A stretch of DNA of 20,494 nucleotides from a virus. This document shows positions 1 to 20,233 of the stretch, in pieces. The stretch is from positions 1 to 20,494 of the IMG/VR virus record IMGVR_UViG_3300025011_000224; one strand, written 5' to 3'. The notes beneath the pieces are model-generated. The model ran no database searches, was not told where the DNA came from, and worked only from the letters and a program-made list of their open reading frames with translations. The stretch's first letter is position 1. Each line of letters begins with the position of its first letter. The translations under genes and the position numbers were made by a program.

Positions 1-877
1 TTATGATGTTGTCGAAGGCTAGGGCAGAGTTGTAGTCAATGATCAGGGCTAATGTTTGGGCAGCAGAGGTTGTGCCTCGATTGCCACCAATAACTACCTT
101 GTCGCTATTCTCATCGATCAATAAGGTGACAACCGCAAAGGTGTTGTTAAGAATCATCGCCACCGCATCAGCACAGGTCATGCTTGCGTGGATAGTAATC
201 CCGATTGCACCTGACTCGATTTGATTACCCTCGATAAGCAATGCTCGGCTTGATCCTGTTCCGATGTCGATAGTCGTAGTAGAATACTTGCCAAAGAATT
301 TACACCCCTTGATAGTGAATTGTTCTACTGCCGTGGCAACGATGGCCTTCGTAGCAGGAGTAGTTGAGCGACCATCGAAGTGACAGCCATAAAAAGCAAG
401 CCCGGAGGTAGTTGTTGGGACAGTGAAGATAACTCCGCCTGCCGCCGGTGACATAAAGCCCATGTTGAAGAATCGGCATCCCATATAGGCACCTGCACCG
501 ATTACGTGGTTGCCGATCATCATAGGTGTTGGTCTGTGGTCGTAGGAGCCCACGCCGATAACGTCGCATTTATTAGGTAGCGTGATAAGGGTTTCTGCTG
601 CCGCTTCGTTATTGTCGCCTTTGTAATAGATCTGATTTCTAGCTGCCCAACCTTTTGAGTTTAAGGCTATGTTGGCGTTACTAGCTACTATTGCGGCAGC
701 TAGCGTTTTGAATGGACGTTCCCAGCTTGAGCCATTGTTGGTGTCAACGCCGAAGTTTACATCTACATAGTAGCGATTGCCCGCGACTACATTGCCGAAG
801 ATTTGGCTTTCATAGCCTGATGGACCTTGGAATACTCCGTTAATGCCGGATACTTGATCGAAATGAGTTTTTCCCAT
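1..877 (-). CDS. Right-handed beta-helix (pectate-lyase-like) phage surface protein, 3' end outside window
   Basis: The frame stays open from an ATG at 877 to the left edge (at least 292 residues). AAAAGGAGG sits 7 nt before the start. Near residues 35-60 it carries YYVDVNFGVDTNNGSS followed by WERPFKTLAAAI, the opening signature of parallel beta-helix proteins with a pectate-lyase fold. Short Gly/Asn/Ile-rich rungs follow, for example FYGCHFDG, TIKGCKFFG and LLIEGNQIESGAIG. In phages such folds form spikes, fibres or capsid-attached appendages, sometimes binding or cutting surface glycans. Position just after the capsid genes suggests a virion appendage. No catalytic residues can be assigned, so enzymatic activity is not claimed. 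The fold call is fairly sure; the virion role is inferred. Confidence 0.75.
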   Translation of the reverse strand, partial: MGKTHFDQVSGINGVFQGPSGYESQIFGNVVAGNRYYVDVNFGVDTNNGSSWERPFKTLAAAIVASNANIALNSKGWAARNQIYYKGDNNEAAAETLITLPNKCDVIGVGSYDHRPTPMMIGNHVIGAGAYMGCRFFNMGFMSPAAGGVIFTVPTTTSGLAFYGCHFDGRSTTPATKAIVATAVEQFTIKGCKFFGKYSTTTIDIGTGSSRALLIEGNQIESGAIGITIHASMTCADAVAMILNNTFAVVTLLIDENSDKVVIGGNRGTTSAAQTLALIIDYNSALAFDNII

Positions 878-938
878 GATTTTGCCTCCTTTTAATTAGG
901 GGAGATCCCCCACGGCTTTGCCGCATTAAATTGGAAAA

Positions 939-957
939 GCACCCTTTAATAGAGTGC
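939..957 (-). terminator. Intrinsic terminator overlapping the HNH gene stop
   Basis: On the minus strand GCACTCT pairs with AGGGTGC (one T-G wobble) around an ATTAA loop, followed by TTTT (938-935). The HNH stop codon (946-948) lies in the loop/stem. It would end the leftward endonuclease transcript before the beta-helix gene. Confidence 0.6.
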
Positions 958-1998
958 CAGTTGTTGGGTATTTGTTTTTGAGTCGAAGCCTATCCATGCG
1001 TGTATTTTGGCTAGACGTTCGGTGGTGAAGAAGGGTTGAGATTTGTACCAAGGTTCCATATCGTTATTTATCTTGCTACTATTGCAGGATTTACAAGATG
1101 GAACAATGTTTGTTCTGACTAACGGACCACCTTTTGATACAGGTATGACGTGTTCCTTTGCGAAAGATTTAAGTTCCTTGCCACAATAGGCGCATTGATT
1201 GAAGTATTCCTTACATTGAATCCAATCTTCTCTCGTTAATGTCGTTGTAAGGTTTTTCTTCCTAGAACGATATTCAGCAGTTTGCATATTGTGACGAGGT
1301 TGCGTTTTCCTTTGATATGCTCGTACTTTTTCACGTTCTTCATCAGTAAGATTAAGTCGGCGTCCCCTTCTTTTAGCTATTAGGACATCGTAGTTTTCCT
1401 CTCGATATTTCTTGCCAGATTCCCTGCTTGCTTCTGGATTTTCCCAATAGCGTTTCTTATTGTATGCATTTCTTTTATCCCTACTTGCCAAATGGTACTT
1501 TTTATCATTTTCACGATACTTTTCAGGATTTAACGCTCTTTTTTCCCTCCTTTTGGTATTGACTTCTTCCCTGTTCTCGTCATACCATGCGGCAGATGCC
1601 ACTATCCGTTCTTCTTGGTGTTCGTCGTAATACTTCTTATTTTTAACCTTCAGTCCATTAGGGTTATCTATCCAACGATTTTTTTCGTATTCCCTCAACC
1701 ATTCAGGGTTATTGGACCTCCATTCCTTAGAGGATGCGTTTTGACATTTCTTACAACTTCTATAGAATCCGGTAAATGTTGTATCTGATTTACTAAAAAA
1801 CTCTTCGGTTAATGGATACTCGGTTTCGCATTTTTTACAATGCTGATACCCTTCACGTTCTATCGGGAGGAATTTATACCCTTGACACTCGCGACAAGGT
1901 AATCTAAATCCTTTCCTGCCCCTCCTGTTCTGCTCGAAAAAGTATTCCCTTCTTGCTGGAAGTTTTCTTCCGCAAACTTTGCATTCCTTTTCTTCCAA
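946..1998 (-). CDS. HNH homing-type endonuclease with N-terminal zinc-finger pairs
   Basis: A 350-residue protein. Residues 1-85 hold two tandem units, each with CxxC then CxxC (C6/C9, C35/C38; C54/C57, C82/C85), probably zinc-binding. The middle (about 95-235) is a highly charged region with repeated Tyr-rich segments (NPEKYRENDKKYH, NPEASRESGKKYREENY) typical of DNA-tracking regions in phage homing nucleases. The C-terminal part (about 265-310) is an HNH domain: CAYCGKEL, then EHVIPVSKGGP, then NIVPSCKSCNSSK, with two CxxC zinc pairs around the catalytic His. The frame is open from a GTG at 2007, but that codon overlaps AAGGAG (2012-2007); the TTG at 1998 lies 8 nt after it and is the likelier start. 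It is divergent from a tiny RHH gene and inserted between the capsid and beta-helix genes. Such nucleases nick or cut DNA and spread their own gene. Confidence 0.9.
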   Translation of the reverse strand: MEEKECKVCGRKLPARREYFFEQNRRGRKGFRLPCRECQGYKFLPIEREGYQHCKKCETEYPLTEEFFSKSDTTFTGFYRSCKKCQNASSKEWRSNNPEWLREYEKNRWIDNPNGLKVKNKKYYDEHQEERIVASAAWYDENREEVNTKRREKRALNPEKYRENDKKYHLASRDKRNAYNKKRYWENPEASRESGKKYREENYDVLIAKRRGRRLNLTDEEREKVRAYQRKTQPRHNMQTAEYRSRKKNLTTTLTREDWIQCKEYFNQCAYCGKELKSFAKEHVIPVSKGGPLVRTNIVPSCKSCNSSKINNDMEPWYKSQPFFTTERLAKIHAWIGFDSKTNTQQLALY

Positions 1999-2021
1999 TA
2001 TTTCCACTCCTTGAATCTTAC

Positions 2022-2077
2022 TGTACGTCCATTATACCATGAATGTACGTTGACATTCAATAGTTATATGGTATAAT
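2022..2077. promoter_or_regulatory. Symmetric divergent promoter/operator between HNH and RHH genes
   Basis: Plus strand: TTGACA (2050-2055), 16 nt, TATAAT (2072-2077). Minus strand: TTGAAT (2060-2055), 18 nt, TATAAT (2036-2031). The two -10 boxes are the ends of a perfect 10-bp inverted repeat, ATTATACCAT (2031-2040) and ATGGTATAAT (2068-2077). A second inverted repeat, GAATGT (2041-2046) and ACATTC (2053-2058), nests inside. TGTACGT occurs twice, at 2022-2028 and 2044-2050. A protein bound here would cover both promoters; the adjacent RHH protein is the obvious candidate, which is inference. Confidence 0.7.
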
Positions 2078-2102
2078 TACAAAAAAGATCGGAGTGATTT
2101 AT

Positions 2103-2264
2103 TTGGGAAATAGAGATTTAAAGACAAGGGAACCAGTATCAAGCTCGGTAAAGAAAGAAATTTGGCAAGCACTAAGGAGTTTTTCTGAAGAATCGAAAGT
2201 ACCAATATCAAAACTTTTAGATGAAGCAATAGAAGATTTGCTTACCAAAAGAAAGGGTAGCTAA
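2103..2264 (+). CDS. Small ribbon-helix-helix DNA-binding protein, likely autorepressor of the HNH cassette
   Basis: A 53-residue protein starting at a TTG preceded by GGAG at 8 nt. A GTG nine bases upstream is in frame but overlaps that site. After a short charged lead it reads as a beta strand (PVSSSV) and two helices: KKEIWQALRSFSEES, then VPISKLLDEAIEDLL. This is the MetJ/Arc-like ribbon-helix-helix layout, with the common turn of the form S-E-x-S/T-x-I/V-P-x-S-K. RHH proteins bind DNA as dimers through the paired strands, usually at short repeated operators. It has its own strong promoter facing the HNH promoter and ends inside a long terminator hairpin. The same motif pattern returns in the two RHH domains near 5.1-5.7 kb. 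Regulation of HNH is inferred from layout. Confidence 0.8.
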   Translation: MGNRDLKTREPVSSSVKKEIWQALRSFSEESKVPISKLLDEAIEDLLTKRKGS

Positions 2265-2289
2265 TTGATAGTTACCCTTTCTTTTGGTA
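2243..2289. terminator. Bidirectional terminator, 21-bp stem
   Basis: TACCAAAAGAAAGGGTAGCTA (2243-2263, written here as two joined segments TACCAAAAGAAAGGG + TAGCTA) pairs with 2269-2289 with a single G-T wobble and a 5-nt loop ATTGA. The arms contain CTTTTGG/CCAAAAG, so each strand reads a T-rich 3' arm. It separates the convergent RHH gene (plus) and major capsid gene (minus), and the last codons of the RHH gene form its left arm. Confidence 0.85.
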
Positions 2290-2307
2290 TTTAATAGACT
2301 AATTGGG

Positions 2308-3282
2308 TTATGCTGGGATTGAAAATTGAAATGGTTGGTGTGAATATGCGCCAGCAGAGTACCACATAATGGAACCAATCGACCATTTTTGTTCTGCTTC
2401 TGTTTTCCAAGAAATGACTTCATAGTCATCGCCTGACTCTAATCTGTTGACCCACTTGAGACTTTCCTTGGCGGCCATGCTATCCATCACACACCAAGGT
2501 TGGCCTGTTTTGCCAACTTGCTTGCGGAATTGATCCCACACTATAACCCTTAAATTTCCATCGTATATATTGACGTTGTTGTCTCCGGTGTCAGATTTTC
2601 CAGTAGAACCGACAATTTCCATAGCCTTCTTACGGAGAGCAGTAGGAACAACAAGCGTATCTGGGTTTAACTGGGATTCCTTACCATTTTCGTCTTTTGT
2701 GTCGAACATTTTTTGGCAAACAATTTCTAGATTTTCCTCGTTCAGTTCTAATGCTTCAAGGTTATCTTGGGTTGAGCTGGAGTTTGCCAAAGTCTGACTG
2801 TTTGATGCCAATGGGAGGCCATTGGATGTCAATGTCCAATTTAGTCGAACGCCGTTTACTGTATAAGATGTTTGGTCAGCATAGGTAAATATTCCACCAG
2901 CACAAGCATTGCGGGTTCGAGCAGCGCCGAGCGCAAACATACCGTGTTCATTCTTTAAATTTACAAGTTTAGCATTAGACAGCGTAAAGCGGTCGTACTG
3001 AATTCCAGCTTGCCACACCAACGGAGTCCAGACCTTAGCGTTGCCAGAATCTTTAATTTCGCCGTATGAAAACTCACCGTTCCACTCTTTGAAATCAACA
3101 GCCCCGACAAGCTCACTTATAGCCTCTGTTGCGTTGTCTGATGTTATTTGATCAAACAATATCGGAATAAGGGAATCCTTGTACGCCTTGGCATATTTAT
3201 CCTGCCAATATTCAAGCAAGGGATTTTCATACAAACCCACCATCTTTTGGAAATTACCTGAACTTTGAATCATTACACCCAT
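2308..3282 (-). CDS. Phage major capsid protein
   Basis: A 324-residue protein that forms the icosahedral head shell, assembled on the scaffold encoded upstream. The ATG at 3282 follows AGAGGTG at 7 nt. Position (after scaffold and decoration genes), length, and composition fit a major capsid protein: an N-terminal helical stretch, then the mixed region with EWNGEFSYGEIKDSG and WQAGIQYDRFTLSNAK, and a C-terminal half with DTLVVPTALRKKAMEIVG, GNLRVIVWDQF and a final WSIGSIMWYSAGAYSHQPFQF strand pattern (given in part). The segment listing a dated peptide bond to a stored value followed by a strand and a bulky aromatic end is usual for HK97-fold capsid proteins of Bacillota phages. No prohead protease gene lies in the window. 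An alternative start at the Met four codons later is possible. Confidence 0.85.
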   Translation of the reverse strand: MGVMIQSSGNFQKMVGLYENPLLEYWQDKYAKAYKDSLIPILFDQITSDNATEAISELVGAVDFKEWNGEFSYGEIKDSGNAKVWTPLVWQAGIQYDRFTLSNAKLVNLKNEHGMFALGAARTRNACAGGIFTYADQTSYTVNGVRLNWTLTSNGLPLASNSQTLANSSSTQDNLEALELNEENLEIVCQKMFDTKDENGKESQLNPDTLVVPTALRKKAMEIVGSTGKSDTGDNNVNIYDGNLRVIVWDQFRKQVGKTGQPWCVMDSMAAKESLKWVNRLESGDDYEVISWKTEAEQKWSIGSIMWYSAGAYSHQPFQFSIPA

Positions 3283-3308
3283 TACAATACACCTCTATCT
3301 TTCTTAAA

Positions 3309-3728
3309 TTAAGCCTGGCAAATATTCTTGCTGGCAATCACTTGAACTTTCAAATTAACGGCATCCTTCTTCAGGATCCGCAAACATCCACCCGTCACCG
3401 TGGCACTCGCCACATTAGCCCCATTAGCATCTAACACAGCCAGCTTCAACCCAGGCAAGAACGCTGCATCAGCCGTCCCTGTATAATCCGCTTCAATGAT
3501 GTCTCCTGGCTTAACCAACTCCATTACTGCCAAAACATCAGTCCCAGCAGTAGCAGCCTTAATGCAAACAGCCTCAATCGCGGCAGTTGTTGCCGATTTT
3601 GTCCATCGCTGGCTTGCGAGGTAATACCCCTGTCCGACAACAGCCGCCTCAGAGTCCGTCATGTAAATGTCATCAACAAACTTGCCGTGGTAGTTCCCAA
3701 GGATGCTACCGATAATTTTTAACGCCAT
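3309..3728 (-). CDS. Probable head decoration / capsid-stabilising protein
   Basis: A 139-residue, Ala/Gly/Val-rich, beta-strand-rich protein without cysteine clusters or catalytic motifs. AAGGAG precedes the ATG by about 10 nt. It sits between scaffold and major capsid genes, 14 nt downstream of the scaffold stop and 26 nt upstream of the capsid start region, the classical place for a decoration (gpD-like or head-stabilising) protein. Segments such as VKPGDIIEADYTG and VASATVTGGCLRILKKDA look like a small beta barrel. The role rests on gene order and composition; no specific family motif was recognised, so a head-fibre or other capsid accessory role remains open. Confidence 0.55.
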   Translation of the reverse strand: MALKIIGSILGNYHGKFVDDIYMTDSEAAVVGQGYYLASQRWTKSATTAAIEAVCIKAATAGTDVLAVMELVKPGDIIEADYTGTADAAFLPGLKLAVLDANGANVASATVTGGCLRILKKDAVNLKVQVIASKNICQA

Positions 3729-3742
3729 GATTTACACTCTCC

Positions 3743-4624
3743 TTATTTCTTTAAATATTTAGCTTCTTTCTTGCGGGCCTCTGCTTCCGTGTATCCCATA
3801 GCCCTCCAAACGCGCATCTTCTCAGCGCTCACCTCAACCTCTTTACCCTGTTGCGTATTCCCCGACTTCTCAGTCCCCAAATGCGCCTTACTCCCGATAT
3901 TACGAATAGCCCCCTGCGCCCCTTCTTCCTTAGCCTTCTGGCGAATCTCGGCGCGATTGACAGCTTCATAAGCTTCTAAAAGGGTCATCCCTTTGTACGC
4001 CTTTGCTTTAATAGCCTCGAAGTTGGGTAACGCTTGCATATCGGCCAGGGTTTTTACCTTCAAGTCCGGGTACTCAGTCGCCAACTCTTTAATCTCGGAA
4101 TTAACAAGTGATTGTCCTTGCTGAATTCTTGCTGCCTTAATATCTGGATGATTGGCGACAATCTGGTTAACTAGGTCGGGGTCAATGCCCTTAGCCCTGT
4201 ATGCCTCATCTTGCGTTTGCTTCTGTAATGCAGCTTCAAACTCTTCCACCGTATTAAGTCCATGCGACCTACCGTATTGAGCAGCTACGTCAGCATCGGA
4301 GTAGATGTTGTAGTCCTTGCCGTACTTTCTAGCAGCCTCATTGTCGCGTCTACGCTGACTCTCGACTTCACTAGCTCGTCGTTCTGCCGCTTCTTTACTG
4401 CGCCTTAACTCGGCAAAGGCTGCATTTTGTTCAGGAGTTTGTACCGCTTTCTGACTGGCGGGGTCAGTACCCGTTCCCGGGTCAGCTGCGCCACTGTTTA
4501 GTTCTCCTGTTGGTTCTGTGTTTACTGGTTCATTGCTTGAGGGTGCGGGTTCACCTCCACCTTCGCCGCTGCCTTCTTCATCCATAAATGGACGTAAGTT
4601 CTTTAAGTTGAAAATGTTAAACAT
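3743..4624 (-). CDS. Phage scaffolding protein
   Basis: A 293-residue, highly charged, helix-rich protein. The start ATG has AAAGGAG at 7 nt. Residues about 15-65 form a low-complexity acidic/Gly/Pro/Thr linker (DEEGSGEGGGEPAPSS onward). About 65-100 is a strongly charged coiled-coil-like helix (AELRRSKEAAERRASEVESQ). The C-terminus is basic (TEAEARKKEAKYLKK). This order (acidic disordered part, long helices, basic capsid-binding tail) is the usual make-up of scaffolding proteins, which guide head assembly and then leave the prohead. The place directly upstream of decoration and major capsid genes supports it. No protease motif was seen. Confidence 0.8.
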   Translation of the reverse strand: MFNIFNLKNLRPFMDEEGSGEGGGEPAPSSNEPVNTEPTGELNSGAADPGTGTDPASQKAVQTPEQNAAFAELRRSKEAAERRASEVESQRRRDNEAARKYGKDYNIYSDADVAAQYGRSHGLNTVEEFEAALQKQTQDEAYRAKGIDPDLVNQIVANHPDIKAARIQQGQSLVNSEIKELATEYPDLKVKTLADMQALPNFEAIKAKAYKGMTLLEAYEAVNRAEIRQKAKEEGAQGAIRNIGSKAHLGTEKSGNTQQGKEVEVSAEKMRVWRAMGYTEAEARKKEAKYLKK

Positions 4625-4645
4625 AATAAATCTCCTTTGCGTAAA

Positions 4646-4727
4646 CAGCCGCCGCCGTATTGCACCTATTTGGAAGGTGAGCCCTGCCCCAAATTAGGCA
4701 TAGGAAAAGGCGGCTGGTATTGCCGCC
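4646..4727 (-). promoter_or_regulatory. Alternative hairpins in the leader of the scaffold gene (attenuator-like)
   Basis: In the leftward RNA, GGCGGC (4727-4722) can pair with GCCGCC (4714-4709) around a 7-nt loop, followed by TTTT (4708-4705), a short terminator. The same CAGCCGCC (4716-4709) can instead pair with GGCGGCTG (4653-4646) nearer the scaffold start. The two structures exclude each other. Regulation is inference from pairing alone. Confidence 0.4.
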
Positions 4728-4744
4728 CTGTACTGAATATGGAA

Positions 4745-4891
4745 CTATTTACCGTTGTTGTTCGATTTCTTTGATCTCAGGTCGCCACCTTTTAAAATTT
4801 TTGTGGCTGGCTTGCTAGTTTCGCCAGAAGTCCCATAGGTAAAACTGGCTTTGCAACTCATGGGTTTGTCCAAGTTTTTCCCGTTTGCCAT
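4745..4891 (-). CDS. Small basic protein of unknown function upstream of scaffold
   Basis: A 48-residue frame with a very strong ribosome binding site (GGGAGGTG, 7 nt before ATG). It is Lys/Gly/Ser/Asn-rich (MANGKNLDKPMSCKAS at the start, RSKKSNNNGK at the end), has one cysteine, and shows no membrane segment or known motif. It is the first gene after the terminator at 4924-4952 and precedes the scaffold gene by about 120 nt that can form alternative hairpins. It may be a small virion or assembly factor; not recognised. Confidence 0.6.
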   Translation of the reverse strand: MANGKNLDKPMSCKASFTYGTSGETSKPATKILKGGDLRSKKSNNNGK

Positions 4892-4923
4892 ATCGTTTCA
4901 CCTCCCTTCACCGTAAATTTATA

Positions 4924-4952
4924 AACAAAAAGAGCACCCTATTGGGCACTCT
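4924..4952 (-). terminator. Intrinsic terminator upstream of the capsid gene block
   Basis: Leftward RNA: AGAGTGCCC (4952-4944) pairs with GGGTGCTCT (4939-4931) with two wobble pairs and a 4-nt loop, followed by TTTTTGTTT. The opposite strand has no T-run. It lies between cassette B and the scaffold operon, so it would stop leftward transcripts that have read antisense through cassette B. Confidence 0.65.
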
Positions 4953-4980
4953 CAAGAATGGGTCTATAGTCAATTGTTTT

Positions 4981-5027
4981 TGTACAAATGTCTTGACGTG
5001 TCATTACTTATCATGATATAATGTACA
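4981..5027 (+). promoter_or_regulatory. Sigma-A-type promoter with flanking TGTACA repeats (cassette B)
   Basis: TTGACG (4993-4998), 18 nt, TATAAT (5017-5022), then GGAGG and the RHH start at 5044. The palindrome TGTACA flanks the promoter at 4981-4986 and 5022-5027, and TGAC-GT-GTCA lies over the -35 box. These are candidate binding sites for the RHH protein encoded just downstream. Confidence 0.7.
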
Positions 5028-5043
5028 TATGGAGGTGAGCTAA

Positions 5044-5184
5044 ATGAGAGTTCCATATGCCACTAAAATAGATATAGATCTTAGGGATAAGTTGGTTAAT
5101 CTTTCGGAAGAAACTCGTATTCCTCAGTCTAAACTAATCGACGAAGCCATCAAGTATTTGCTAAAAAAATATGGCAAGGAGTGA
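5044..5184 (+). CDS. Small ribbon-helix-helix DNA-binding protein, likely regulator of the nuclease operon
   Basis: A 46-residue protein, almost only an RHH fold: strand PYATKIDI, helix one LRDKLVNLSEET, turn RIP, helix two QSKLIDEAIKYLLKKY. GGAGG lies 8 nt before the ATG. It shares with the RHH gene at 2103 the pattern S-E-E-S/T-x-I/V-P-x-S-K-L-I/L-D-E-A-I. RHH dimers bind short operators, and the first gene of such an operon usually represses its own promoter. Its stop codon comes 4 nt before the nuclease start, and the nuclease ribosome binding site lies within its last codons, so the two are probably translated together. Confidence 0.8.
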   Translation: MRVPYATKIDIDLRDKLVNLSEETRIPQSKLIDEAIKYLLKKYGKE

Positions 5185-5188
5185 TTCG

Positions 5189-5689
5189 GTGTTCAATTTT
5201 ACACTTGAAAAGGAATTACAAGATTTCATAATTTCTAACTTCAACCGATACTTTAGCTTTAGTTACGTATGCCAAGAATTGACTGTAGAATGTGGTAGAA
5301 TAGATCTAATCGGAGAAGATGAGGATAACGTATATATCATAGAGCTAAAACGCGATATCATAACTAAGACGGCGGTTAAACAACTTGATAATTACATGGA
5401 CTATTATAAAACCACTAAAAATATAATAGGCATTGCCACCGCCCCTGAAATATCCGATGGAATAGATTTGTCATTGTTTAAAAATAACATTAGATTGCAA
5501 TGTATAGATGGGGTACACTGTCTATTCGATCATAACGCCGATAGTTTAAAGAACAGAGAAAGAATCGGAACGAGTTTACCAATAGAGCTAGTAAAGAAAA
5601 TGAAGGACTACTCAGAAAGCACCATGATACCAATAAGTAAGATAATAGAAAAGGCAATTGATGAGTACCTAAAGTCCGTTAATAAATAA
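5189..5689 (+). CDS. PD-(D/E)XK (NucS/DUF91-like) nuclease fused to a C-terminal RHH domain
   Basis: A 166-residue protein. The nuclease core is TVECGRIDLIGEDEDNVY then IIELKRD, giving D39, E52 and K54 of the PD-(D/E)XK site, followed by AVKQLDNYMDYY with the conserved Gln/Tyr pair seen in NucS- and RecB-type nucleases. Residues about 128-163 form an RHH domain (IGTSLPIELVKKMKDYSEST then MIPISKIIEKAIDEYL). The longest frame begins at an ATG at 5171, but AAGGAG (5176-5181) sits 7 nt before the GTG at 5189, and the ATG has no site. The fused RHH may direct the nuclease to chosen sites or tether it to the operator. It could be a homing-type nuclease or an exclusion/defence nuclease; target unknown. 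A terminator follows. Confidence 0.8.
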   Translation: MFNFTLEKELQDFIISNFNRYFSFSYVCQELTVECGRIDLIGEDEDNVYIIELKRDIITKTAVKQLDNYMDYYKTTKNIIGIATAPEISDGIDLSLFKNNIRLQCIDGVHCLFDHNADSLKNRERIGTSLPIELVKKMKDYSESTMIPISKIIEKAIDEYLKSVNK

Positions 5690-5701
5690 CGGGCTTTTTT
5701 T
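5673..5701 (+). terminator. Intrinsic terminator of cassette B
   Basis: AGTCCGTTA (5673-5681) pairs with TAACGGGCT (5687-5695), one wobble, 5-nt loop, followed by a run of seven T. It overlaps the nuclease stop and faces the convergent leftward gene ending at 5706. Confidence 0.85.
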
Positions 5702-5705
5702 CATC

Positions 5706-5837
5706 CTAGCACCCCTTACCTTTCTTCCCTGTGCCCTTTTTCATCGGCATCTTACCCATCATTCCCATTTCCATCTTGCCCATCTCAGGCTTCTTACCAG
5801 CCTCTTTCATTGCGGACTTAGTTGCTTTCTTTTTCAT
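5706..5837 (-). CDS. Lys/Met/Gly-rich 43-residue protein of unknown function
   Basis: The frame starts with ATGAAAAAGAAAGCAAC and reads MKKKATKSAMKEAGKK, then a Met/Gly/Lys repeat (EMGKMEMGMMGKMPMKKG), ending KGKGC. The start overlaps the end of the HExxH gene by 20 nt, with GGTGAAGG just before the ATG. It is strongly basic, lacks hydrophobic segments, and has a lone C-terminal Cys. Composition and place in the portal operon suggest a small DNA- or capsid-associated protein, but no family was recognised. Confidence 0.5.
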   Translation of the reverse strand: MKKKATKSAMKEAGKKPEMGKMEMGMMGKMPMKKGTGKKGKGC

Positions 5838-6222
5838 TTTCCTTCACCAATCCTTCTCTTTTTAATCCCACCAATGCCCTCGCGATAATATTAATCACTT
5901 GTTCTTCCAATTCCCCATCTTCGCCTTCGTGTTTAAATCGAGCAAAAAGAAGATGTAGTAATTCGTGAACCAAAGAAACCTCCATGTCGTAACTAAAGTC
6001 AGTATTACTCCAATCTATAGGGTTCATCTGCTTCACGATTGCCTCAAGTCCACATATACGGTAGTTAATGTTTCCCTGAGATTGCTCTAGGTCCATATCC
6101 TGAACTCTAACGATCTTCGCAACTATGTCCCATTGGTCAAGAGTAAGAATATCTTTCCAGTACTTTAGTTTTTCTTGCTGCTCAACCTCATTATAGGTAC
6201 ACGATTGACGCTTAAAACTCAA
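5818..6222 (-). CDS. HExxH zinc-metallopeptidase-like protein next to portal
   Basis: A 134-residue protein with VHELLHLLF, a zinc-protease HExxH (H86, E87, H90), and acidic residues about 16-17 positions later (E106, E107) that could be the third ligand, followed by a helix (VINIIARALVGL). The frame can be extended to a TTG at 6264, inside the portal gene, but AAGGAGG lies 8 nt before the TTG at 6222, which begins one base after the portal stop codon. Tight coupling to portal suggests a late gene. Small HExxH proteins are common in phages and are often of unknown substrate; a role as head maturation protease is possible but not shown. Confidence 0.65.
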   Translation of the reverse strand: MSFKRQSCTYNEVEQQEKLKYWKDILTLDQWDIVAKIVRVQDMDLEQSQGNINYRICGLEAIVKQMNPIDWSNTDFSYDMEVSLVHELLHLLFARFKHEGEDGELEEQVINIIARALVGLKREGLVKENEKESN

Positions 6223-6223
6223 T

Positions 6224-8437
6224 TTACTGTCCTCCTTGCACCTCTGCCATAATCTGCTCAACAACTGCCATTAACTCATTCGGATTATCCAGTAACACCA
6301 TCAACTTATCAGGTTCCATCTGAGACAATAACCTCGCTACAGGTTCGGGAAGCTTCTCTAACGCCTTCATTATCTCAGGTGATAGTTTTGGCTTGCCCTG
6401 TGGTTGCTGATTGCTATCAGGTGATCGTGGAGCTTGTGGTTGCTTTTCTTGGTTCTGCGCTTGCAGTATAGCTTGCATTTGCTGTATATCCTCGACGGTG
6501 AGTTGTATCCCAGCCTTAGCAGCCATTTGTATTTGTCCCGATGGCGGCAAATCCTTAAACGGTATCGACTCGGTAGGCGGCTTTGGTATTTCCTGCTTTG
6601 GTGGAGCTGCCTGAGACTGTTTAATAATCTCCCCCATCTCATCAATAACCCCTTGCAGGTCTGGAACACCTAACTTGTTCAATAACTTCAAGAATGTCAG
6701 ATTGCCGGGGTTCGGCTCAAATCTTCCCTGTCCAGCTAAATTACTCAGAGTATTGAATATCTCAACTCTCGACTTCATAAAGCCAGACTCGGCACTTATC
6801 TCGATATCGAAATCAGGATAAATGTAATTGCCTGATTGGTCCTTGAGCATTGCCAGCCTATTAAACTTTCCATACTGTGCCTTTGGCTTAGTAGCGTTGG
6901 GGTCCACTGGAACAGGTGGTGCAGCTTGTCCGGGCGTAGGCGGCGCATCGGGCGAAGTTGGCATAGGCGGGGCGGGCGGATCGCCTTTAATTCTAAATGG
7001 CCTAGATTCGTCTACAAATGCCATTGAGAAGTCAGCAATAACTCTGTAAATCCTCTTGTATGCACTCGCCTTGTAAGCTGATTTAAGAGCCACTTTGAAG
7101 TTAGCTTGCTCCACATACACTTGTGCTTGTTTGCCAGACGTTACGCCTTGATCCCTTACTCCCAAGGCTGAATTTGTTGCCCCAGTCAGTAGTTGCATCC
7201 ATTCCTTGAGCTGATTAATCCAGGCTACTCCATCAACGTTACCCCTCATGTTTATTTCTTTGACACTTTGATTAGGGTCAGGCACATAATGAACTTTTGA
7301 AATCGAAGACTCTAAGGCTATCTTTAATTCTTGGCTTCCAACTAAAAGATGTATATTGCCCTTTAGGTGTTCTTCCTCATGTTGATAAACAGCCTTTTTG
7401 ATTGCCTCGTTAATGTCGTGAATATCTTCCATGATAGATATTCCCCAGAAACACTTGTCCCGAGGAATGAACGGTTGATATATGAGATCCCACGATTTAG
7501 GGATGTAGTAGTCGGCTTCCTTGCCCTCATACTCATGACTTTCCTTTAACGAAACTCCATCTTCATCCCTACGATGATAAAACTTAGGAGTATGAAGAAT
7601 AACCAAGTCGCCCGACCACCATAGTTTGCATTGTTCGTTATCTTCATCCAGATAAGTTGTCTCAATAATAGTGTACTTTTCAAGTCCCATCTCTTGATCA
7701 CCGGACTCGGAATCTCCTACGGATATCCTTTGTGAACCGCTAATCTCATCGTATTCCTTGAATAATTGGGCTTTTTGCTCAAGCATATCCCTTGTAATGT
7801 GCTTCCATTTTTTAGTTATATAGTTCGCTGTGCGGTTATTTGGATGGTGATAATGCTCCATATCGTCGATTGAGGTTGCACCATGGTTAGGGATGATGTC
7901 TTTTGGGTGAGGTGCAGAAAGTTCTATTTCTCCGACATAGCCCGCCCTTTTAGTGCTGTTGTTCCAGTGAATCTTCGTGAAGGCTCCACCTAGTTTCATT
8001 ACCCTGCGCTCATTGTGAAGATTCATTTCTTCTAGTGATGGTTGAGCAGAGCGAACAACATACATGACATAGTTTTTGAGGGATTCGATAACTTCCTCAT
8101 CGTCACCGGATACAGCCTTAAAGTCAGGGTCCGGAATTTTTAACTCAATAAGACTTTCCACTATCATTCGAGGGAAGTTAATTATCGTTCGCGGGGTTTT
8201 GCCAGAATTACTGAATTCGTCCTCTAAGTTCTGGAAATCACGGCCAGCATCATAGATCGCTTCCCATTGGTCGAACCTTGCATCCCATGGCTTCTTGGCC
8301 CTTTTATCTGCCTCGAATACTGGCTGCCATCTTTCTATGAGTTCGCGGTCGGCTTCTTCTTGTTCAGCGTTTTGAACCATTTCTTTTTTGCCCATGATTT
8401 TTCCCACCGCTTTCTTAGCTTTGGTTAGTAGCGACAT
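6224..8437 (-). CDS. Phage portal protein
   Basis: A 737-residue protein forming the dodecameric ring at one head vertex through which DNA enters and leaves. The N-terminal part has the portal layout WDARFDQWEAIYDAGRDF, then RTIINFPRMIVESLIELK, then LHNERRVMKLGGAFTKIHW. The centre has DIIPNHGATSIDDMEHY and IIETTYLDEDNEQCKLWW, and later IMEDIHDINEAIKKAVYQHEE and ATNSALGVRDQGVTSGKQAQ, all usual for large P22-type portals. A Pro/Ala-rich linker (around residue 500) and a long Gln/Pro-rich C-terminal tail follow. The frame extends to an ATG at 8458, but AGAGGTG sits properly only before the ATG at 8437. It lies downstream of the large terminase, as expected. Confidence 0.9.
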   Translation of the reverse strand: MSLLTKAKKAVGKIMGKKEMVQNAEQEEADRELIERWQPVFEADKRAKKPWDARFDQWEAIYDAGRDFQNLEDEFSNSGKTPRTIINFPRMIVESLIELKIPDPDFKAVSGDDEEVIESLKNYVMYVVRSAQPSLEEMNLHNERRVMKLGGAFTKIHWNNSTKRAGYVGEIELSAPHPKDIIPNHGATSIDDMEHYHHPNNRTANYITKKWKHITRDMLEQKAQLFKEYDEISGSQRISVGDSESGDQEMGLEKYTIIETTYLDEDNEQCKLWWSGDLVILHTPKFYHRRDEDGVSLKESHEYEGKEADYYIPKSWDLIYQPFIPRDKCFWGISIMEDIHDINEAIKKAVYQHEEEHLKGNIHLLVGSQELKIALESSISKVHYVPDPNQSVKEINMRGNVDGVAWINQLKEWMQLLTGATNSALGVRDQGVTSGKQAQVYVEQANFKVALKSAYKASAYKRIYRVIADFSMAFVDESRPFRIKGDPPAPPMPTSPDAPPTPGQAAPPVPVDPNATKPKAQYGKFNRLAMLKDQSGNYIYPDFDIEISAESGFMKSRVEIFNTLSNLAGQGRFEPNPGNLTFLKLLNKLGVPDLQGVIDEMGEIIKQSQAAPPKQEIPKPPTESIPFKDLPPSGQIQMAAKAGIQLTVEDIQQMQAILQAQNQEKQPQAPRSPDSNQQPQGKPKLSPEIMKALEKLPEPVARLLSQMEPDKLMVLLDNPNELMAVVEQIMAEVQGGQ

Positions 8438-8458
8438 TGTTTCACCTCTTTCGGACAT

Positions 8459-8495
8459 AAAAAATAGCCCACCCCTCGGTTAAGAGAGATGGGCT
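8459..8495 (-). terminator. Intrinsic terminator before the portal gene
   Basis: Leftward RNA: AGCCCATC (8495-8488) pairs with GGTGGGCT (8473-8466), one wobble, followed by ATTTTTT (8465-8459). It lies only about 20 nt upstream of the portal start, so either it is leaky or antiterminated, or portal has a promoter hidden here. Confidence 0.65.
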
Positions 8496-8513
8496 TCTAG
8501 AGCCTCTAGATTA

Positions 8514-8757
8514 TTAAGCTTCTTCTTCGATTGAAAAGCCTACGGATAAATGATTTTGGTCAGCCACTTTAATAATCCATAAACCATTCACGCTGGTTTT
8601 CATCACTGCGTTTTGTGCCGTATGGCAATGAATAGTTGTTTCTTTTAATAGTTCTCGGTATTCCTCACGTCCTAAATAAACCTAAATAAACATGAGTTGG
8701 CTGGTAATAATTATCCGACATGTACTTAGCTTCTAAATTTCCTATCCTATCAATCAT
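8514..8757 (-). pseudogene. Small phage protein gene broken by a 10-bp tandem duplication
   Basis: AAGGAGG lies 7 nt before an ATG at 8757. Reading starts MIDRIGNLEAKYMSDN, then YYQPTHVYLG, then LFRT and a TGA at 8667-8665 (30 residues). The bases 8671-8690 are two copies of the same 10-mer. Taking one copy out restores a single frame of 77 residues: QPTHVYLGREEYRELLKE, then TAQNAVMKTSVNGLWIIK, ending FSIEEEA at 8514. The Pro-x-x-Tyr-Leu-Gly-x-x-Glu-Tyr motif is common in small phage proteins of unknown role encoded between terminase and portal. Either this copy is truncated, or ribosomes shift frame, or the repeat is a slippage variant. Confidence 0.75.
8671..8690. repeat. 10-bp perfect tandem duplication
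   Basis: CCTAAATAAA occurs twice head to tail (8671-8680 and 8681-8690), followed by a further C. The unit is not a multiple of three and shifts the frame of the small gene around it. Confidence 0.95.
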
Positions 8758-8776
8758 CGCAGAACCTCCTTGGGTT

Positions 8777-8917
8777 TCATTCTTTTTCAAAGTATTCCCT
8801 TAACGCTAGGCATTGATTTTCAATCATTAAGCCAATAGCCTCTTTGGTTAATATTTTTCTTCCATCCGTAACCTCATCAAATTTTTTCTTAAGTTCCTCT
8901 TTGGTTAATTCCATCAT
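8777..8917 (-). CDS. 46-residue helical protein of unknown function
   Basis: AAGGAG is 7 nt before tandem ATGs. The product (MMELTKEELKKKFDEV, then TDGRKILTKEAIGLMIEN, ending LREYFEKE) is acidic and helical with two LTKE-type units, as if built from two short repeats; DNA copies of TTGGTTAAT mark both. It lies between the Com-like gene and the frameshifted gene and its stop overlaps an ATG. It was not recognised. Confidence 0.6.
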   Translation of the reverse strand: MMELTKEELKKKFDEVTDGRKILTKEAIGLMIENQCLALREYFEKE

Positions 8918-8937
8918 CGACACTCTCCTTCGGCGTT

Positions 8938-9039
8938 CTATTTTTCGTTAATTGTACCGCATCTTGGGCACTTAATCTCTGCCCTTCCTTCTACTTTTCC
9001 GAGCAGCTTATTACATTTTTTACATCTGAATTCTTCCAC
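8938..9039 (-). CDS. Com-like zinc-finger protein
   Basis: A 33-residue protein beginning with GTG, 8 nt after GGAGG; the GTG shares its first base with the terminase TAG stop. It reads MEEFRCKKCNKLLGKV then EIKCPRCGTINEK, so C6/C9 and C24/C27 form one zinc knuckle. This is the pattern of the phage Mu Com protein, which binds an mRNA leader and opens it for translation of mom. No mom-like gene is in the window, and Com-like fingers are widespread in Bacillota phages near terminase genes. RNA or DNA binding here is inferred from the family. Confidence 0.75.
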   Translation of the reverse strand: MEEFRCKKCNKLLGKVEGRAEIKCPRCGTINEK

Positions 9040-10862
9040 TACTTCTTCCTCCGATACTTAGCCATCTCCACATACTTATCTTCAAAATCGATATTAGCCT
9101 TAACTCTCGACTTTTCTTCCTCGCTCATGTTGGCGGGGAGTTCGAATTTGGCGTTGCGATTGACCGAAAACCTCATTTGACTTCTGCTTGCGTTGGCGAT
9201 TGCATCCGACATAATCAAGTCATCGTGCTTTCCTGCCTCGGCATCCGGTCTGCCATTCTTGTCCATCACAAACGTAAGACACTCAGACAGGAACCCGATG
9301 TGAGTAAATAGGTCTGGATTGTCTCTAATAAGAACTACCAAAAGCGACAGGATGAAAGGTCTCGTATTACCGTCCGTTTTAAATCCATGCTTATATAGCT
9401 TCTTGTGGTAAATATCGTCTACGCTTTCACGCTTGTATTGATTGTAATATTTAAGTCTCTCTAATTCTTCGATAGGGTATCGGTCCAGGTTCATTTCAAT
9501 ACTGATTAGCGCATTGTTATAATATTTGCCTAAACAATACATTTGGTGAGTGTAGGTATCTATGGCCATTTTCCCATGTAAAGCAACAACTCTTTTCCCT
9601 GATGAATTGTTTATGCCTATACCACCGAAGCTATCCGCCCCGCCCGCGGCCGTATCTCCCCCCAAAACGAAAGGATGACCACTCCTTGGTTCTTCGTAAA
9701 TATGAATATAGCCACCGGGTGAATCTATAAACCTGATTGAACTGTCCCTTATTTTGTCTTTTGAATCAGGGTCGTTCCATTCAAAGATGAAATATCCTGT
9801 CCTTGGTGGCTTCGTCTTGTATTGCTTTTTGAGTTGCTCTATACGAAGTAGAACACGTTCATTATCGAACACCGGCCGTCCTGTAGAGAGGAACGCTTCC
9901 CGACTATTGCTGGGATTTTCTTGGCGCATGAGGTCCTTATCACCATTACAGTCATTCTTTAATTTCCATCTGTACCACTTAATCCTCTCAGCAGGAAGCT
10001 CGTAGTTATCAACAAGGCCTTGCTCGTACTCATTCAGGCTAGACATTATCTCAATACGTTCTTCATCAGTTACCGGCATCTGATAATCAGGGTAATCGAA
10101 CCATGAAAAAAACATTGGGATGTAATCGTTTTCTCCTGATTCAGCTAAGTCCCACAGTGTTTTGAATGAGTTATTTCCGTTGGCAGTCGATTCAATAATT
10201 ACGATTGTTCCAACTACACTAGGGACGGATGAATTGATACCGGATAAGGCCTTTAACGGGTCGCCACTGTAAAAGGCAAACTCCGATAAATGAATGTAAT
10301 GATAGGTATCTGACCGGCCAATACCATCCGATCCTGCGGTTTGTACTTTGATCTTACTGTTCAGTCCTTTTTCTTTACCCTTATGAGTAACAGGGGTATC
10401 AAATATCAACTCTCTAGCATTGGATGCTCTTTGTAAGGGCTTTATATGGTCAGGCAAGCATGAATTCGAGTATTTAGCCTTATCAAAAATTGCGTTTGTG
10501 CTGTCATCGCGATGAGCTACCACGAGAGCATTACGGTTCTTGTTCTTTATGGTTCGACACAAGAACTTAGCTTGAATGTACGTACTCACGCCCTCCTGTC
10601 TCGCTTTGAGCACAATGATTCGAGCAGGCTTCCCTTGTGATTCAAGCTCTTTTATTTTATCTTCAATCTTCTTTTGGATTGGATTAAGCACGAATGGCAC
10701 TTGGTTTCCGTCTTTGTTAATAATTTTTACATAGTATTTAAGCCAAAATTCATCGTCGCGCTTCGCTTGCTCATCGTACATTAACTGCAAGGTAGGAATA
10801 TCGCTTGGTTTAATCTTTTTTGGCGGGTCTTTTGTTTCTGCCTTTACTACCACTTCTCCCAC
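9039..10862 (-). CDS. terL: Terminase large subunit (packaging ATPase and nuclease)
   Basis: A 607-residue motor protein that pumps DNA into proheads and cuts the concatemer. The ATPase part shows a Walker-A-like KARQEGVST (about 86-94), Walker B HYIHLSEF (188-195, catalytic Glu 194) and motif III ESTANG (224-229). The RNase-H-like nuclease part shows VLGGDTAAGG (D403), ISIEMN (E456) and KHDDLIMSDA (D547/D548), the usual acidic triad. The start is not certain: the GTG at 10862 has only GAGG at 10 nt, and a GTG three codons later is in frame; both lie inside the end of the preceding gene. Small terminase is over 3 kb away instead of adjacent. Confidence 0.92.
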   Translation of the reverse strand: MGEVVVKAETKDPPKKIKPSDIPTLQLMYDEQAKRDDEFWLKYYVKIINKDGNQVPFVLNPIQKKIEDKIKELESQGKPARIIVLKARQEGVSTYIQAKFLCRTIKNKNRNALVVAHRDDSTNAIFDKAKYSNSCLPDHIKPLQRASNARELIFDTPVTHKGKEKGLNSKIKVQTAGSDGIGRSDTYHYIHLSEFAFYSGDPLKALSGINSSVPSVVGTIVIIESTANGNNSFKTLWDLAESGENDYIPMFFSWFDYPDYQMPVTDEERIEIMSSLNEYEQGLVDNYELPAERIKWYRWKLKNDCNGDKDLMRQENPSNSREAFLSTGRPVFDNERVLLRIEQLKKQYKTKPPRTGYFIFEWNDPDSKDKIRDSSIRFIDSPGGYIHIYEEPRSGHPFVLGGDTAAGGADSFGGIGINNSSGKRVVALHGKMAIDTYTHQMYCLGKYYNNALISIEMNLDRYPIEELERLKYYNQYKRESVDDIYHKKLYKHGFKTDGNTRPFILSLLVVLIRDNPDLFTHIGFLSECLTFVMDKNGRPDAEAGKHDDLIMSDAIANASRSQMRFSVNRNAKFELPANMSEEEKSRVKANIDFEDKYVEMAKYRRKK

Positions 10863-11017
10863 CCAATCATAGCCTCATACTTCTCATCCTGACTTGCCAC
10901 AACAAACGCCTCTCCCCTGCATCTAACTCCATTCCACAGAGTACATGAAGCGCAGTTTGTTTTTTCGTATGTAGGGTCTGTAGCGTCGAACTTTTTACAT
11001 GCTCTATTTTCCGACAT
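10847..11017 (-). CDS. Cys-rich small protein upstream of large terminase
   Basis: A 56-residue protein (MSENRACKKFDATDPTY, then CASCTLWNGVRCRGEAF, ending MIGWEKW). TAGGAGTGAAATC precedes the ATG with good spacing. Cysteines 7, 22, 25 and 33 could bind one zinc. Its end overlaps the terminase start by 16 nt, which implies translational coupling. Similar short proteins with a CxxCxxWxxxxC core are frequent in Bacillota phages; the function is unknown. Confidence 0.65.
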   Translation of the reverse strand: MSENRACKKFDATDPTYEKTNCASCTLWNGVRCRGEAFVVASQDEKYEAMIGWEKW

Positions 11018-11027
11018 GATTTCACTC

Positions 11028-11231
11028 CTATTGACTATCCTTGGAAATTATAAATATCCATTCCTCTTGACCGTTTTCATCGTCGCCCAATGATTCAATT
11101 ACCTTATCCATAATTTCATAACATCCCGATAGCCAACCGTGGATATTATCATCGATATAAATATCACCAGGCAATGGTTCACTTTTTGCGGCACATAATA
11201 TTTTCCCATTTGTCCTCACTCTTAGTGCCAA
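11028..11231 (-). CDS. Small conserved phage protein with GD-x-YIDD motif
   Basis: A 67-residue protein. AGGAGG is 8 nt before a TTG; the GTG nine bases upstream overlaps this site and is rejected. It reads MALRVRTNGKILCAAKSE, then PGDIYIDDNIHGWLSGCYEI, and ends in EEWIFIISKDSQ. Short proteins with a Cys-Ala-Ala then Gly-Asp-x-Tyr-Ile-Asp-Asp-x-x-His block recur in phage accessory regions, of unknown role. It has its own leader of about 170 nt, in which no promoter was clear. Confidence 0.65.
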   Translation of the reverse strand: MALRVRTNGKILCAAKSEPLPGDIYIDDNIHGWLSGCYEIMDKVIESLGDDENGQEEWIFIISKDSQ

Positions 11232-11410
11232 TCGGATCACCTCCTGAAATTAGCTTATCCTTAACCTTTGCCGATACGTTTAAATATACGTTTGCTTGAG
11301 CATAGCTTGGACTTAACGGTTTGATGGGTTATGTGCGGTTATATTCAAGGGATTGGGTTTAGAAGAAGGGAATTGAGGGGAAAAGGAGGTTTCGCATCGC
11401 ATCAATGGGA

Positions 11411-12055
11411 TTATATTTTTTGCCTTGATGGTTTATATTTCGCACTTAACTCTTTAATCTTTTCTATTAACAATTCGTCAGGTCTAAACCATTCTCCCTT
11501 TAATCTGGCCCCTTCAAATTGTCGATGCAGCGCATGTTCTATCGACTCATCCCCCGGTATCACAAGAAGCATCTTTAAAGTATCTGGATAACCAGTTTGT
11601 AAAGTCTTTAATCTACTGCTCGGGGTAAGTGAATACCCAATCTTAATAGCCCCACCACATTGACCTTGGATGAAGTAGACATACCCTCTATATCTTTTTT
11701 TATCAGAACCGTTAATTGAATCTAGTTCTTTTTCATCACGCACAAACTCTTTTATCTCTTTTCTCATGCGTTCAGCCTTTGTTGACTCATTCTTCCTGTT
11801 CCAATATTCAGTCCACCTTGGGTCGTTCTTCTTCCATGACCATTTATTAATCTCGTTCTCCAATATACTCATAAACCTACGGTCACGCTTAAACGCATTT
11901 AACTTATCTTGACTTCTCCATATACCAAAACTAATACCGGACTCCGTGTGTCCATCACTCTCGAGCTTTTTAACAAACTCTTTAATCTTAGCATCCATAG
12001 GAATACCCAATACTCCAAGAAACGCTTGGTTGTAAGTAGTGACTCTATTAGGCAT
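11411..12055 (-). CDS. GIY-YIG (T5orf172-type) endonuclease
   Basis: A 214-residue protein. The C-terminal half is a GIY-YIG nuclease: GYVYFIQG stands for GIY, IKIGYS for YIG, then SSRLKTLQTG with the catalytic Arg, DESIEHALHRQF, and KGEWFRPDELL, the layout of T5orf172/Mug113 domains. The N-terminal 125 residues are basic and helical (FKRDRRFMSILENEINKW, ESTKAERMRKEIKEF) and may bind DNA. The longest frame begins at a TTG at 12061, only 4 nt from AAGGAGG; the ATG at 12055 (10 nt) is preferred and begins 2 nt after the stop of the gene before it. It sits between small and large terminase genes, a usual target area for homing nucleases. Confidence 0.8.
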   Translation of the reverse strand: MPNRVTTYNQAFLGVLGIPMDAKIKEFVKKLESDGHTESGISFGIWRSQDKLNAFKRDRRFMSILENEINKWSWKKNDPRWTEYWNRKNESTKAERMRKEIKEFVRDEKELDSINGSDKKRYRGYVYFIQGQCGGAIKIGYSLTPSSRLKTLQTGYPDTLKMLLVIPGDESIEHALHRQFEGARLKGEWFRPDELLIEKIKELSAKYKPSRQKI

Positions 12056-12057
12056 AA

Positions 12058-12591
12058 TCAATCGCCCTCCTTATTTGTTTTACCTTTTTTGATAAGTCTC
12101 GAGGAAATAACATAACCGCCATCAGTTGAATAAAGGAGTTCGTGTTCCTTCATTTCACCCAATAGGCGGTTTAATTTCTTGTTTCCACAACCGAATATGG
12201 CTTGTAATTCTTTATACTTCAATGGATTTTTACTTCTATCATGAATTAATCTTCCGGTATTCCATTCAACATATTTTCCTAAAGATACTAAGTACCCTGC
12301 CAACTCTTCGACATTCTTTACCCCACCTTTCTTCAACTTCTCAATCTCTTCGACCATGAGCATGACGTAAGGCTTCTTCCCCCCAGTATGCTTAGGCGGC
12401 GACTTGTCTTTTTTTGCTGGCTTATTTGGATTGTGCCAAAACGAATAGAGAGTTAATTCCCTGTTGCCATTATCAATCTTGACCGTGATGTATTCTTGCC
12501 CGTTAGGTGCTTTATCTCTAGTAATCGTGACTCCTTGAGGAATCAATACGTTAGTATTCCCATTAAGGAAATCAAGTAAATCCTTCTCCAT
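12058..12591 (-). CDS. Winged-helix-like DNA-binding protein
   Basis: A 177-residue protein. The ATG at 12591 has GAGG at 6 nt; an upstream in-frame TTG (12615) has no site. The N-terminal 60 residues form a beta-rich part (VTITRDKAPNGQEYITVKID). Then come a basic linker (NPNKPAKKDKSPPKHTGGKK) and a helical part, VEELAGYLVSLGKYVEW, then PLKYKELQAIFGCGNKKLNR then LLGEMKEHELLYSTDGGYVI, which reads as a helix-turn-helix with a wing. This layout is seen in phage and plasmid replication or regulatory proteins of the RepL/MarR-like kind. Whether it starts replication or controls transcription cannot be told. Paired inverted repeats upstream could be its sites. Confidence 0.6.
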   Translation of the reverse strand: MEKDLLDFLNGNTNVLIPQGVTITRDKAPNGQEYITVKIDNGNRELTLYSFWHNPNKPAKKDKSPPKHTGGKKPYVMLMVEEIEKLKKGGVKNVEELAGYLVSLGKYVEWNTGRLIHDRSKNPLKYKELQAIFGCGNKKLNRLLGEMKEHELLYSTDGGYVISSRLIKKGKTNKEGD

Positions 12592-12889
12592 ATTCCACCT
12601 CAAAAGCCCCTTCAATGGGCATTACTTAGGTGTCATAACGACACGTTGCAAAAATGGCACTCAGCCTTACTCTCCCTAAGAGTATAGGGTTTTCTTCGTG
12701 TAATTCGTTTATATATACGTTCTAGCCTCGTTGCGTTCCTAATCTAATCGGTCACACAAAAATGTGCAATAAGCATGTCTCTCAGCACAAAAATGTGTAA
12801 TTTTATTATCAATAAATCCGCATTCCCCTAGGGATTGATGCTAATCGTCTGCACAAGGCTTAACGTACGTATCCTACGCACCAACGCGG
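12592..12889 (-). promoter_or_regulatory. Intergenic region with paired CACA-N4-TGTG operators and a candidate promoter
   Basis: No gene is seen in these 298 bases. CACAAAAATGTG occurs at 12755-12766 and again at 12786-12797, 31 bp apart, about three helical turns. On the minus strand TTGCAC (12769-12764), 17 nt, TAGATT (12746-12741) is a possible promoter whose spacer contains the first copy. Further down, CCCTA/TAGGG and GCCC/GGGC-TTTT small hairpins occur in the leader of the DNA-binding gene. The repeats are certain; the promoter is weak. Confidence 0.45.
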
Positions 12890-13096
12890 TTAACTCATTT
12901 TGTTCAACTCAGCTTGTTTTATTTTTTCCATCTGAAGCGCATCTTTTCTAACTAACTCATCTAAGTAGTGCTCACACCTCATGGTTACAATAAACGGAAG
13001 TCCTGATAATTCTATTTCCTTAATCATCCTAGAAACATTAATTGCATGTGCCCTGTATTTACATAGGTCTGTGACCGGGCATTTAACGCAGTCCAT
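12890..13096 (-). CDS. Small Cys-rich protein, unknown function
   Basis: A 68-residue protein with GGAG 7 nt before ATG. It begins MDCVKCPVTDLCKYRAHA (C3, C6, C12) with another Cys at 41 (TMRCEHYLDELV) and ends in a charged helix (KDALQMEKIKQAELNKM). The cysteine spacing could hold a metal. The MDCxxCxxxxxC opening is shared with the gene at 17775-17930. It starts 2 nt after the stop of the upstream gene, so the two form an operon. Confidence 0.6.
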   Translation of the reverse strand: MDCVKCPVTDLCKYRAHAINVSRMIKEIELSGLPFIVTMRCEHYLDELVRKDALQMEKIKQAELNKMS

Positions 13097-13098
13097 TG

Positions 13099-13590: not shown

Positions 13591-13607
13591 TATTAGTGCA
13601 TCTCCTT

Positions 13608-13640
13608 TTCTCTAAAAAATTTATAAAATATTTTAGAGAA
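13608..13640. repeat. AT-rich 10-bp inverted repeat (hairpin)
   Basis: TTCTCTAAAA (13608-13617) and TTTTAGAGAA (13631-13640) form a 10-bp stem with a 13-nt loop between the stop of the 58-residue gene and the ribosome binding site of the next one. It lacks a T-run after the stem, so it may be an RNA stability or translation element rather than a terminator. Confidence 0.6.
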
Positions 13641-14732: not shown

Positions 14733-14897
14733 CAGCACACCTCCTTAATCCCTCACTACAACCCACCACATCAATTCTAAGCCCACTACTAACCCATCCA
14801 ATACAATCTACTCAATAACTTAATAGCACTCTTAAAACATTGCTTCTATATATGCCACCAAACTAAAAACAAACAAAAAATAATCTCTAATATCCTC

Positions 14898-14927
14898 TTG
14901 ACGTAACCCAACCGCTTGGGATACAAT
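14898..14927 (+). promoter_or_regulatory. Sigma-A-type promoter of the rightward gene block
   Basis: TTGACG (14898-14903), 18 nt, TACAAT (14922-14927). The spacer holds an inverted repeat CCCAA-CCGC-TTGGG, a possible operator. The first gene begins 30 nt further. The 150 bases before it, which are also the leader of the leftward small terminase gene, are almost free of G on the plus strand. Confidence 0.65.
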
Positions 14928-20232: not shown

Positions 20233-20233
20233 A

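Follow-up and report, generated by a model that had tools for sequence, protein, structure and literature searches.

Layout of the cassette

The window analysed here, a stretch of 20,494 nucleotides of viral DNA (IMG/VR record IMGVR_UViG_3300025011_000224, positions 1 to 20,494), is part of a phage whose terminase, portal, scaffold-like and major capsid genes lie on the minus strand. Between two small late genes of that strand is a plus-strand cassette of two genes, the features of which are listed in Table 1. The leading gene encodes a free ribbon-helix-helix (RHH) protein, and the second, which starts 4 bases after the end of the first and has AAGGAG as its ribosome site, encodes a nuclease domain with an RHH domain fused to its C-terminal side. 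The pair has a promoter and a terminator of its own, which bears out the operon led by a free RHH protein that had been proposed in a sequence-only reading of this DNA. The fusion is a single uninterrupted plus-strand frame from 5171 or 5189 to 5689; GTG 5189 is the probable start, since the homologues described below begin MF.(F/Y)T.E.

A strong intrinsic terminator is also found on the minus strand at 4930-4953, within the late gene run and just before a 48-aa gene. It was considered as the cassette's own terminator (4953-4930) and rejected, given that a hairpin precedes the same gene in the sister phages L014 and L090; the hairpin at the equivalent position in those two phages is a different one.

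Table 1. Features of the two-gene cassette (positions are those of the window)
Feature	Position	Strand	Remarks
Accessory insertion with the cassette	4910-5706	+	in place of 72-aa ORF of sister phages
Sigma-70 promoter, TTGACG-N18-TATAAT	4993-5022	+	11 of 12 consensus positions
Candidate operator of the free RHH, TGACGTGTCATTACTTATCAT	4994-5014	+	covers -35 box and spacer
Free RHH regulator, 46 aa, RHH_3	5044-5184	+	Pfam E 2.5e-15
NucS_C-RHH fusion nuclease, 166 aa	5189-5689	+	GTG start; ATG 5171 possible
PD-(D/E)XK nuclease domain, NucS type	5207-5515	+	PF01939 E 2.7e-11
Catalytic residues	D39 5303-5305, E52 5342-5344, K54 5348-5350, Q65 5381-5383, Y69 5393-5395	+	
Fused C-terminal RHH_3 domain	5552-5677	+	Pfam PF12651
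Intrinsic terminator of the cassette	5671-5697	+	11-pair stem, then T run

The nuclease domain

Pfam recognizes NucS_C (aa 13-115, 44 bits against a cut-off of 24) and then RHH_3 (aa 128-169, E 7.3e-15) in the one frame, so the nuclease with a C-terminal RHH domain that had been read from the letters is recovered by profile. With the GTG start, the motif of that reading (D39, E52, K54, QxxxY) is reproduced as well: D39, E52, K54, Q65 and Y69 are invariant in an alignment of four homologues, they align with the corresponding residues of NucS of P. abyssi, and the fusion thus carries the D...ExK and Q...Y signature of PD-(D/E)XK enzymes within a NucS catalytic fold. An AlphaFold model built from the four sequences (mean pLDDT 68, near 80 in the nuclease part and poor for the linker and the RHH strand) has EndoMS/NucS as the best match of its nuclease part, with a Foldseek E of 1e-5 and a Z of 12.4 over residues 1-113; the next family reaches 9.2. 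The fusion has the catalytic domain, motif and fold in common with NucS/EndoMS and differs in residing in a phage cassette and in having a C-terminal RHH domain instead of the NucS N-terminal DNA-binding domain, which is absent: the GTG start is only 6 residues ahead of the matched catalytic domain, and the NucS equivalog model scores 54.5 bits against a cut-off of 216. Between the nuclease parts of the two most similar homologues, L027 and L031, dN is 0.12 and dS 0.96, which argues that an active enzyme is being maintained; as judged from these alignments, the active site is under purifying selection.

Homologous cassettes

A search pattern built from the motif found three further fusions in viral contigs (L025, L027 and L031), the last of which is a Paenibacillus jilunlii prophage that is also present in the genome contig L035 of this species. 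The possibility that the fusion is a reading error relative to its homologues is thereby excluded, and with three other phages carrying the same fusion a sequencing frameshift is ruled out as its source. All four contigs have the order free RHH, then nuclease-RHH, with the genes coupled or nearly overlapping and in antisense to the genes around them, and all four keep every catalytic residue. Because L027 and L031 occupy one site, the four cassettes represent three independent placements. Identity of the nuclease domains is 78% for the pair L027 and L031 and falls to 42-46% across lineages, and the free RHH proteins of the family are 46-53 aa long.

The fusion is rare: four members were found, and ~790 Bacillota genomes (394 from the Paenibacillus jilunlii family, 398 from the phylum) gave only the known carrier. 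A search of the viral contigs with the single protein gave no match, and a profile scan of the same contigs, based on a four-row alignment and only two peptide patterns, gave no new member. Patterns with NucS spacing brought up ten other nucleases, 0 with an RHH domain; wide genome searches yielded mostly proteins of ~300 aa with a related nuclease domain and no RHH fusions (two that were checked are of the DUF5655 and DUF7669 types), and the matches in phage and plasmid collections were RHH-only. One contig, L018, matched the pattern with a different K-to-Q spacing and was set aside as encoding an unrelated protein. Our literature search found no paper combining NucS and ribbon-helix-helix.

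The free RHH protein and its candidate operator

Both RHH domains of the window belong to RHH_3 (PF12651; free 56.6 bits, fused 55.1 bits, cut-off 21.6), and thus to the Arc-like phage repressors (PHROG 3180), from which the second differs in being joined to a nuclease. The match of the free protein covers positions 1-43 of its 46 residues. Three of the four free RHHs, those of the window, L027 and L031, are orthologues that share the strand VPYATKI; the window and L031 proteins are 65% identical overall. Conserved together with this strand is an upstream site, TGACGTGTCANTACTTATCAT, at which the window and L031 agree in 20 of 21 positions and L027 in 17 of 21, as compared to at most 16 in 200 shuffles. 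This footprint was found nowhere else in the loci compared. From its conservation and its position over the -35 box and spacer, we consider TGACGTGTCANTACTTATCAT the likely operator of the free RHH, through which this protein would repress the cassette. The operator that had been suggested earlier, TGTACA, does not hold up: it occurs 3 times in the whole window versus 3.8 expected, none of the three homologous cassettes has it upstream, and this lack of both enrichment and conservation speaks against it.

Exchange of the fused RHH domain

The nuclease is conserved across the family and the domain attached to it is not of one kind. The fused RHH is RHH_3 in the window and in L025 and of the CopG type in L027 and L031, a call that for L031 comes from a weak Pfam match (RHH_1/5) and for L027 from alignment to L031. 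L027 and L031 pair an RHH_3 free protein with a CopG-like fused domain, and L025 does the reverse, so that free and fused RHH are of different types in three of the four cassettes. In two lineages, the fused domain is most like the free RHH repressors of related phages. For the window, the closest relatives are free RHHs from two sister phages, L005 (60%) and L014 (52%), whose genes are antisense and upstream of an HNH gene or the terminase. In the second lineage, the place of the L031 cassette is taken in genome G222 by a free RHH, next to the same downstream gene; the fused domain of L027 is 68% identical to this RHH, and the two loci share 87% DNA identity over 116 bp that cover the latter half of the RHH and run on into the downstream gene they have in common. 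Two further genomes, G020 and G358, encode free RHHs close to a gene of replication type.

The domain is short and the RHH tree poorly resolved, with no starred branches; trees being weakly supported, the case for exchange rests on identity, domain type and continuity of the DNA. By these sequence comparisons, the fused RHH has been swapped between members of the family, and the mobile part is best seen as the free RHH plus the nuclease, and local phage repressors as the source or the exchange partner of the C-terminal RHH.

Two observations were made on the loci compared here. In L120 (1989-2207) and L121 (1112-1339), the site equivalent to that of the L031 cassette has an antisense gene that by eye is XRE-like HTH, and no RHH. 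In L005 (8625-8708) and L014 (9808-9901), an intergenic promoter region common to the antisense RHH and the HNH gene (L005) or terminase (L014) contains the palindromic TTGCAA, usable as a -35 box in both directions, and the antisense RHH may control late genes there.

The insertion site in sister phages

The cassette occupies an accessory slot rather than representing a clean single insertion. L010 is 96% identical to the window between 6300 and 5707, where its match breaks off sharply; the match of L014 likewise ends at 5707, and that of L090 runs up to 4909. Sister phages share the flanks, and where the window has the cassette they have instead a 72-aa ORF or other small genes. Sites with and without the cassette thus exist among relatives, as is expected of homing elements. 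The same is true of the second lineage, in which G224 is without the insert and has the flanking genes ~16 bp apart. The cassette falls in 4883-7192, the sole long stretch without 100% cover by contigs L004 and L089; window positions 369-4882 and 7193-20494 are 100% identical to these two contigs, which end on either side, so that the cassette rests on a single assembly; the break could reflect strain variation.

The window cassette is not located at its proposed target. The L005/L014 RHH is preceded by a block of DNA that L012 and L013 have as well and that is absent from both the window and a 58-kb contig with 100% identity to it over 13.3 kb. This fits, weakly, a carrier that avoids cutting itself; the argument is a weak one because most sister phages also lack the block.

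Other nuclease and RHH genes occur in these phages. At 946-2264 of the window, an HNH endonuclease gene (minus strand) and a second RHH gene (2094-2264, plus strand) diverge from a shared promoter region that has the inverted repeat TGAATGT...ACATTCA; this HNH and RHH pair recurs beside the capsid gene in L090 and L101, and in L091, L092, L094 and L102 only the HNH gene of the two is present. A T5orf172/MUG113 (GIY-YIG-type) nuclease gene at 11411-12061 is found at 69-71% identity in sister phages L006 and L008. An HNH-type ORF splits the terminase gene of L014 (10804-11586), and likewise those of L012 and L013; it may be an insertion resembling an intron or intein.

What the cassette may do

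Our preferred reading, held tentatively and at somewhat less than an even chance, is that the cassette is a mobile or accessory two-gene unit encoding an endonuclease that is aimed by its RHH and serves homing or inter-phage exclusion. The general idea of the sequence-only reading, a homing unit or a phage-versus-phage weapon, is thereby supported, with cleavage, target and function being what we infer rather than observe. RHH domains bind DNA as dimers (PMC10853773) and NucS binds DNA via its N-terminal domain (PMC5290159). The fused RHH would stand in for that missing domain, pairing two nuclease domains and carrying them to the operators that the RHH reads, and binding of the free RHH to TGACGTGTCANTACTTATCAT over its own promoter would keep expression of the cassette low. 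Since the fused RHH resembles the repressors of related phages, the enzyme may cut related phage DNA beside the repressor operator; the binding specificity may differ, because this target is deduced from a 45-residue domain at 60-68% identity. The outcome in a mixed infection would be localised exclusion or gene conversion (homing, marker exclusion), or, alternatively, protection of a lysogen.

Ranked next, at a probability that we would call low, is a lysogeny "moron" defence in which a nuclease expressed from the prophage (lysogeny being presumed) cuts incoming phage DNA generally and the RHH serves mainly in dimerisation and autoregulation. The cassette's own sigma-70 promoter and terminator, the antisense orientation in all members, the presence of L031 in a Paenibacillus jilunlii genome contig and weak PADLOC matches to candidate defence systems (PDC-S18, E 2e-6; PDC-S02, E 3e-6) are all in keeping with such a role. 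A generic nuclease, however, needs no DNA-binding domain swapped to the local repressor types, and no modification or other rule for telling self from non-self is seen in the cassette. It is improbable that the pair works like a toxin-antitoxin system with a maintenance role, the free RHH being the antitoxin that inactivates the nuclease and represses the operon. An RHH gene followed by a translationally coupled nuclease gene does recall the type II systems, of which RHH autorepression is typical. Yet the free RHH is nearly all RHH fold and has no toxin-binding tail beyond it, the nuclease has a DNA-binding domain of its own, and in L025 the free partner is of the other RHH type though the nuclease is conserved.

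The evidence of domain type also bears on the proposal of the sequence-only reading that free and fused RHH form mixed dimers, which either recruit the nuclease to shared operators or keep it inactive. Both RHHs of the window are RHH_3 and are 40% identical in a small alignment, which speaks for it in this phage; the predicted DNA-facing strand residues of the two nevertheless appear to differ, and TGTACA is not conserved. With the types differing in L025, L027 and L031, mixed dimers are unlikely and unsupported as a general principle, nothing was found in support of recruitment to the cassette's own operator, and we regard control of this sort as very improbable. Equally hard to credit is a repair or recombination nuclease of the phage itself, akin to the mismatch endonuclease NucS and with the RHH as a general DNA-binding tail: the closest structures are indeed those of NucS/EndoMS, but the NucS N-terminal DNA-binding domain is missing, the placement is accessory and sporadic, and the cassette has its own regulator.

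Comparison with known systems and implications

The RHH-aimed endonuclease that we prefer has its nearest parallel in the Odn (origin-directed) nucleases of Vibrio phage ICP1 and coliphage relatives, which are likewise chimeric phage nucleases with a swapped DNA-binding domain like that of other mobile elements; their RepA_N domains mirror those of their targets (PMC10448857, PMC8263062). Odn joins a T5orf172 nuclease to RepA_N and cuts satellite origins, whereas the cassette joins a NucS-type PD-(D/E)XK nuclease to an RHH repressor domain (Pfam gives NucS_C and RHH_3), has a separate RHH regulator, and has a target that is a prediction only. The best reading by analogy is that the cassette works like Odn and is built from different domains. 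SegF, SegE and SegG of T4 are likewise accessory nuclease genes among essential genes, sporadic among relatives (PMC2988022), and by this likeness marker exclusion could result from the cassette too. The cassette differs in being antisense and in having a dedicated regulator gene, and its homing is putative. The Seg enzymes are of the GIY-YIG type and, to our knowledge, are not known with an RHH. Among the T4 homing enzymes both marker exclusion and autorepression are found, and I-TevI, like the fusion, is a nuclease with a separable DNA-binding part, and it represses its own promoter at an operator there (PMC2988022). I-TevI is a GIY-YIG enzyme that represses itself via its own domain; the cassette nuclease is PD-(D/E)XK and the cassette appears to use the separate free RHH for this purpose.

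A bolder version of the preferred reading, which we think unlikely as matters stand, is that this nuclease family hunts rival phages by repeatedly capturing the DNA-binding domain of their Arc-like repressors, with the second RHH restraining the weapon. If true, the operator would be a cutting address that a related phage could hardly discard and still be regulated. Chimeric phage nucleases equipped with the DNA-binding domain of a rival are on record for a single nuclease type (T5orf172) and a single DNA-binding type (RepA_N), and a second, independently built example, here a very small nuclease whose specificity domain is exchanged in nature, would suggest a general route to sequence-specific inter-phage immunity.
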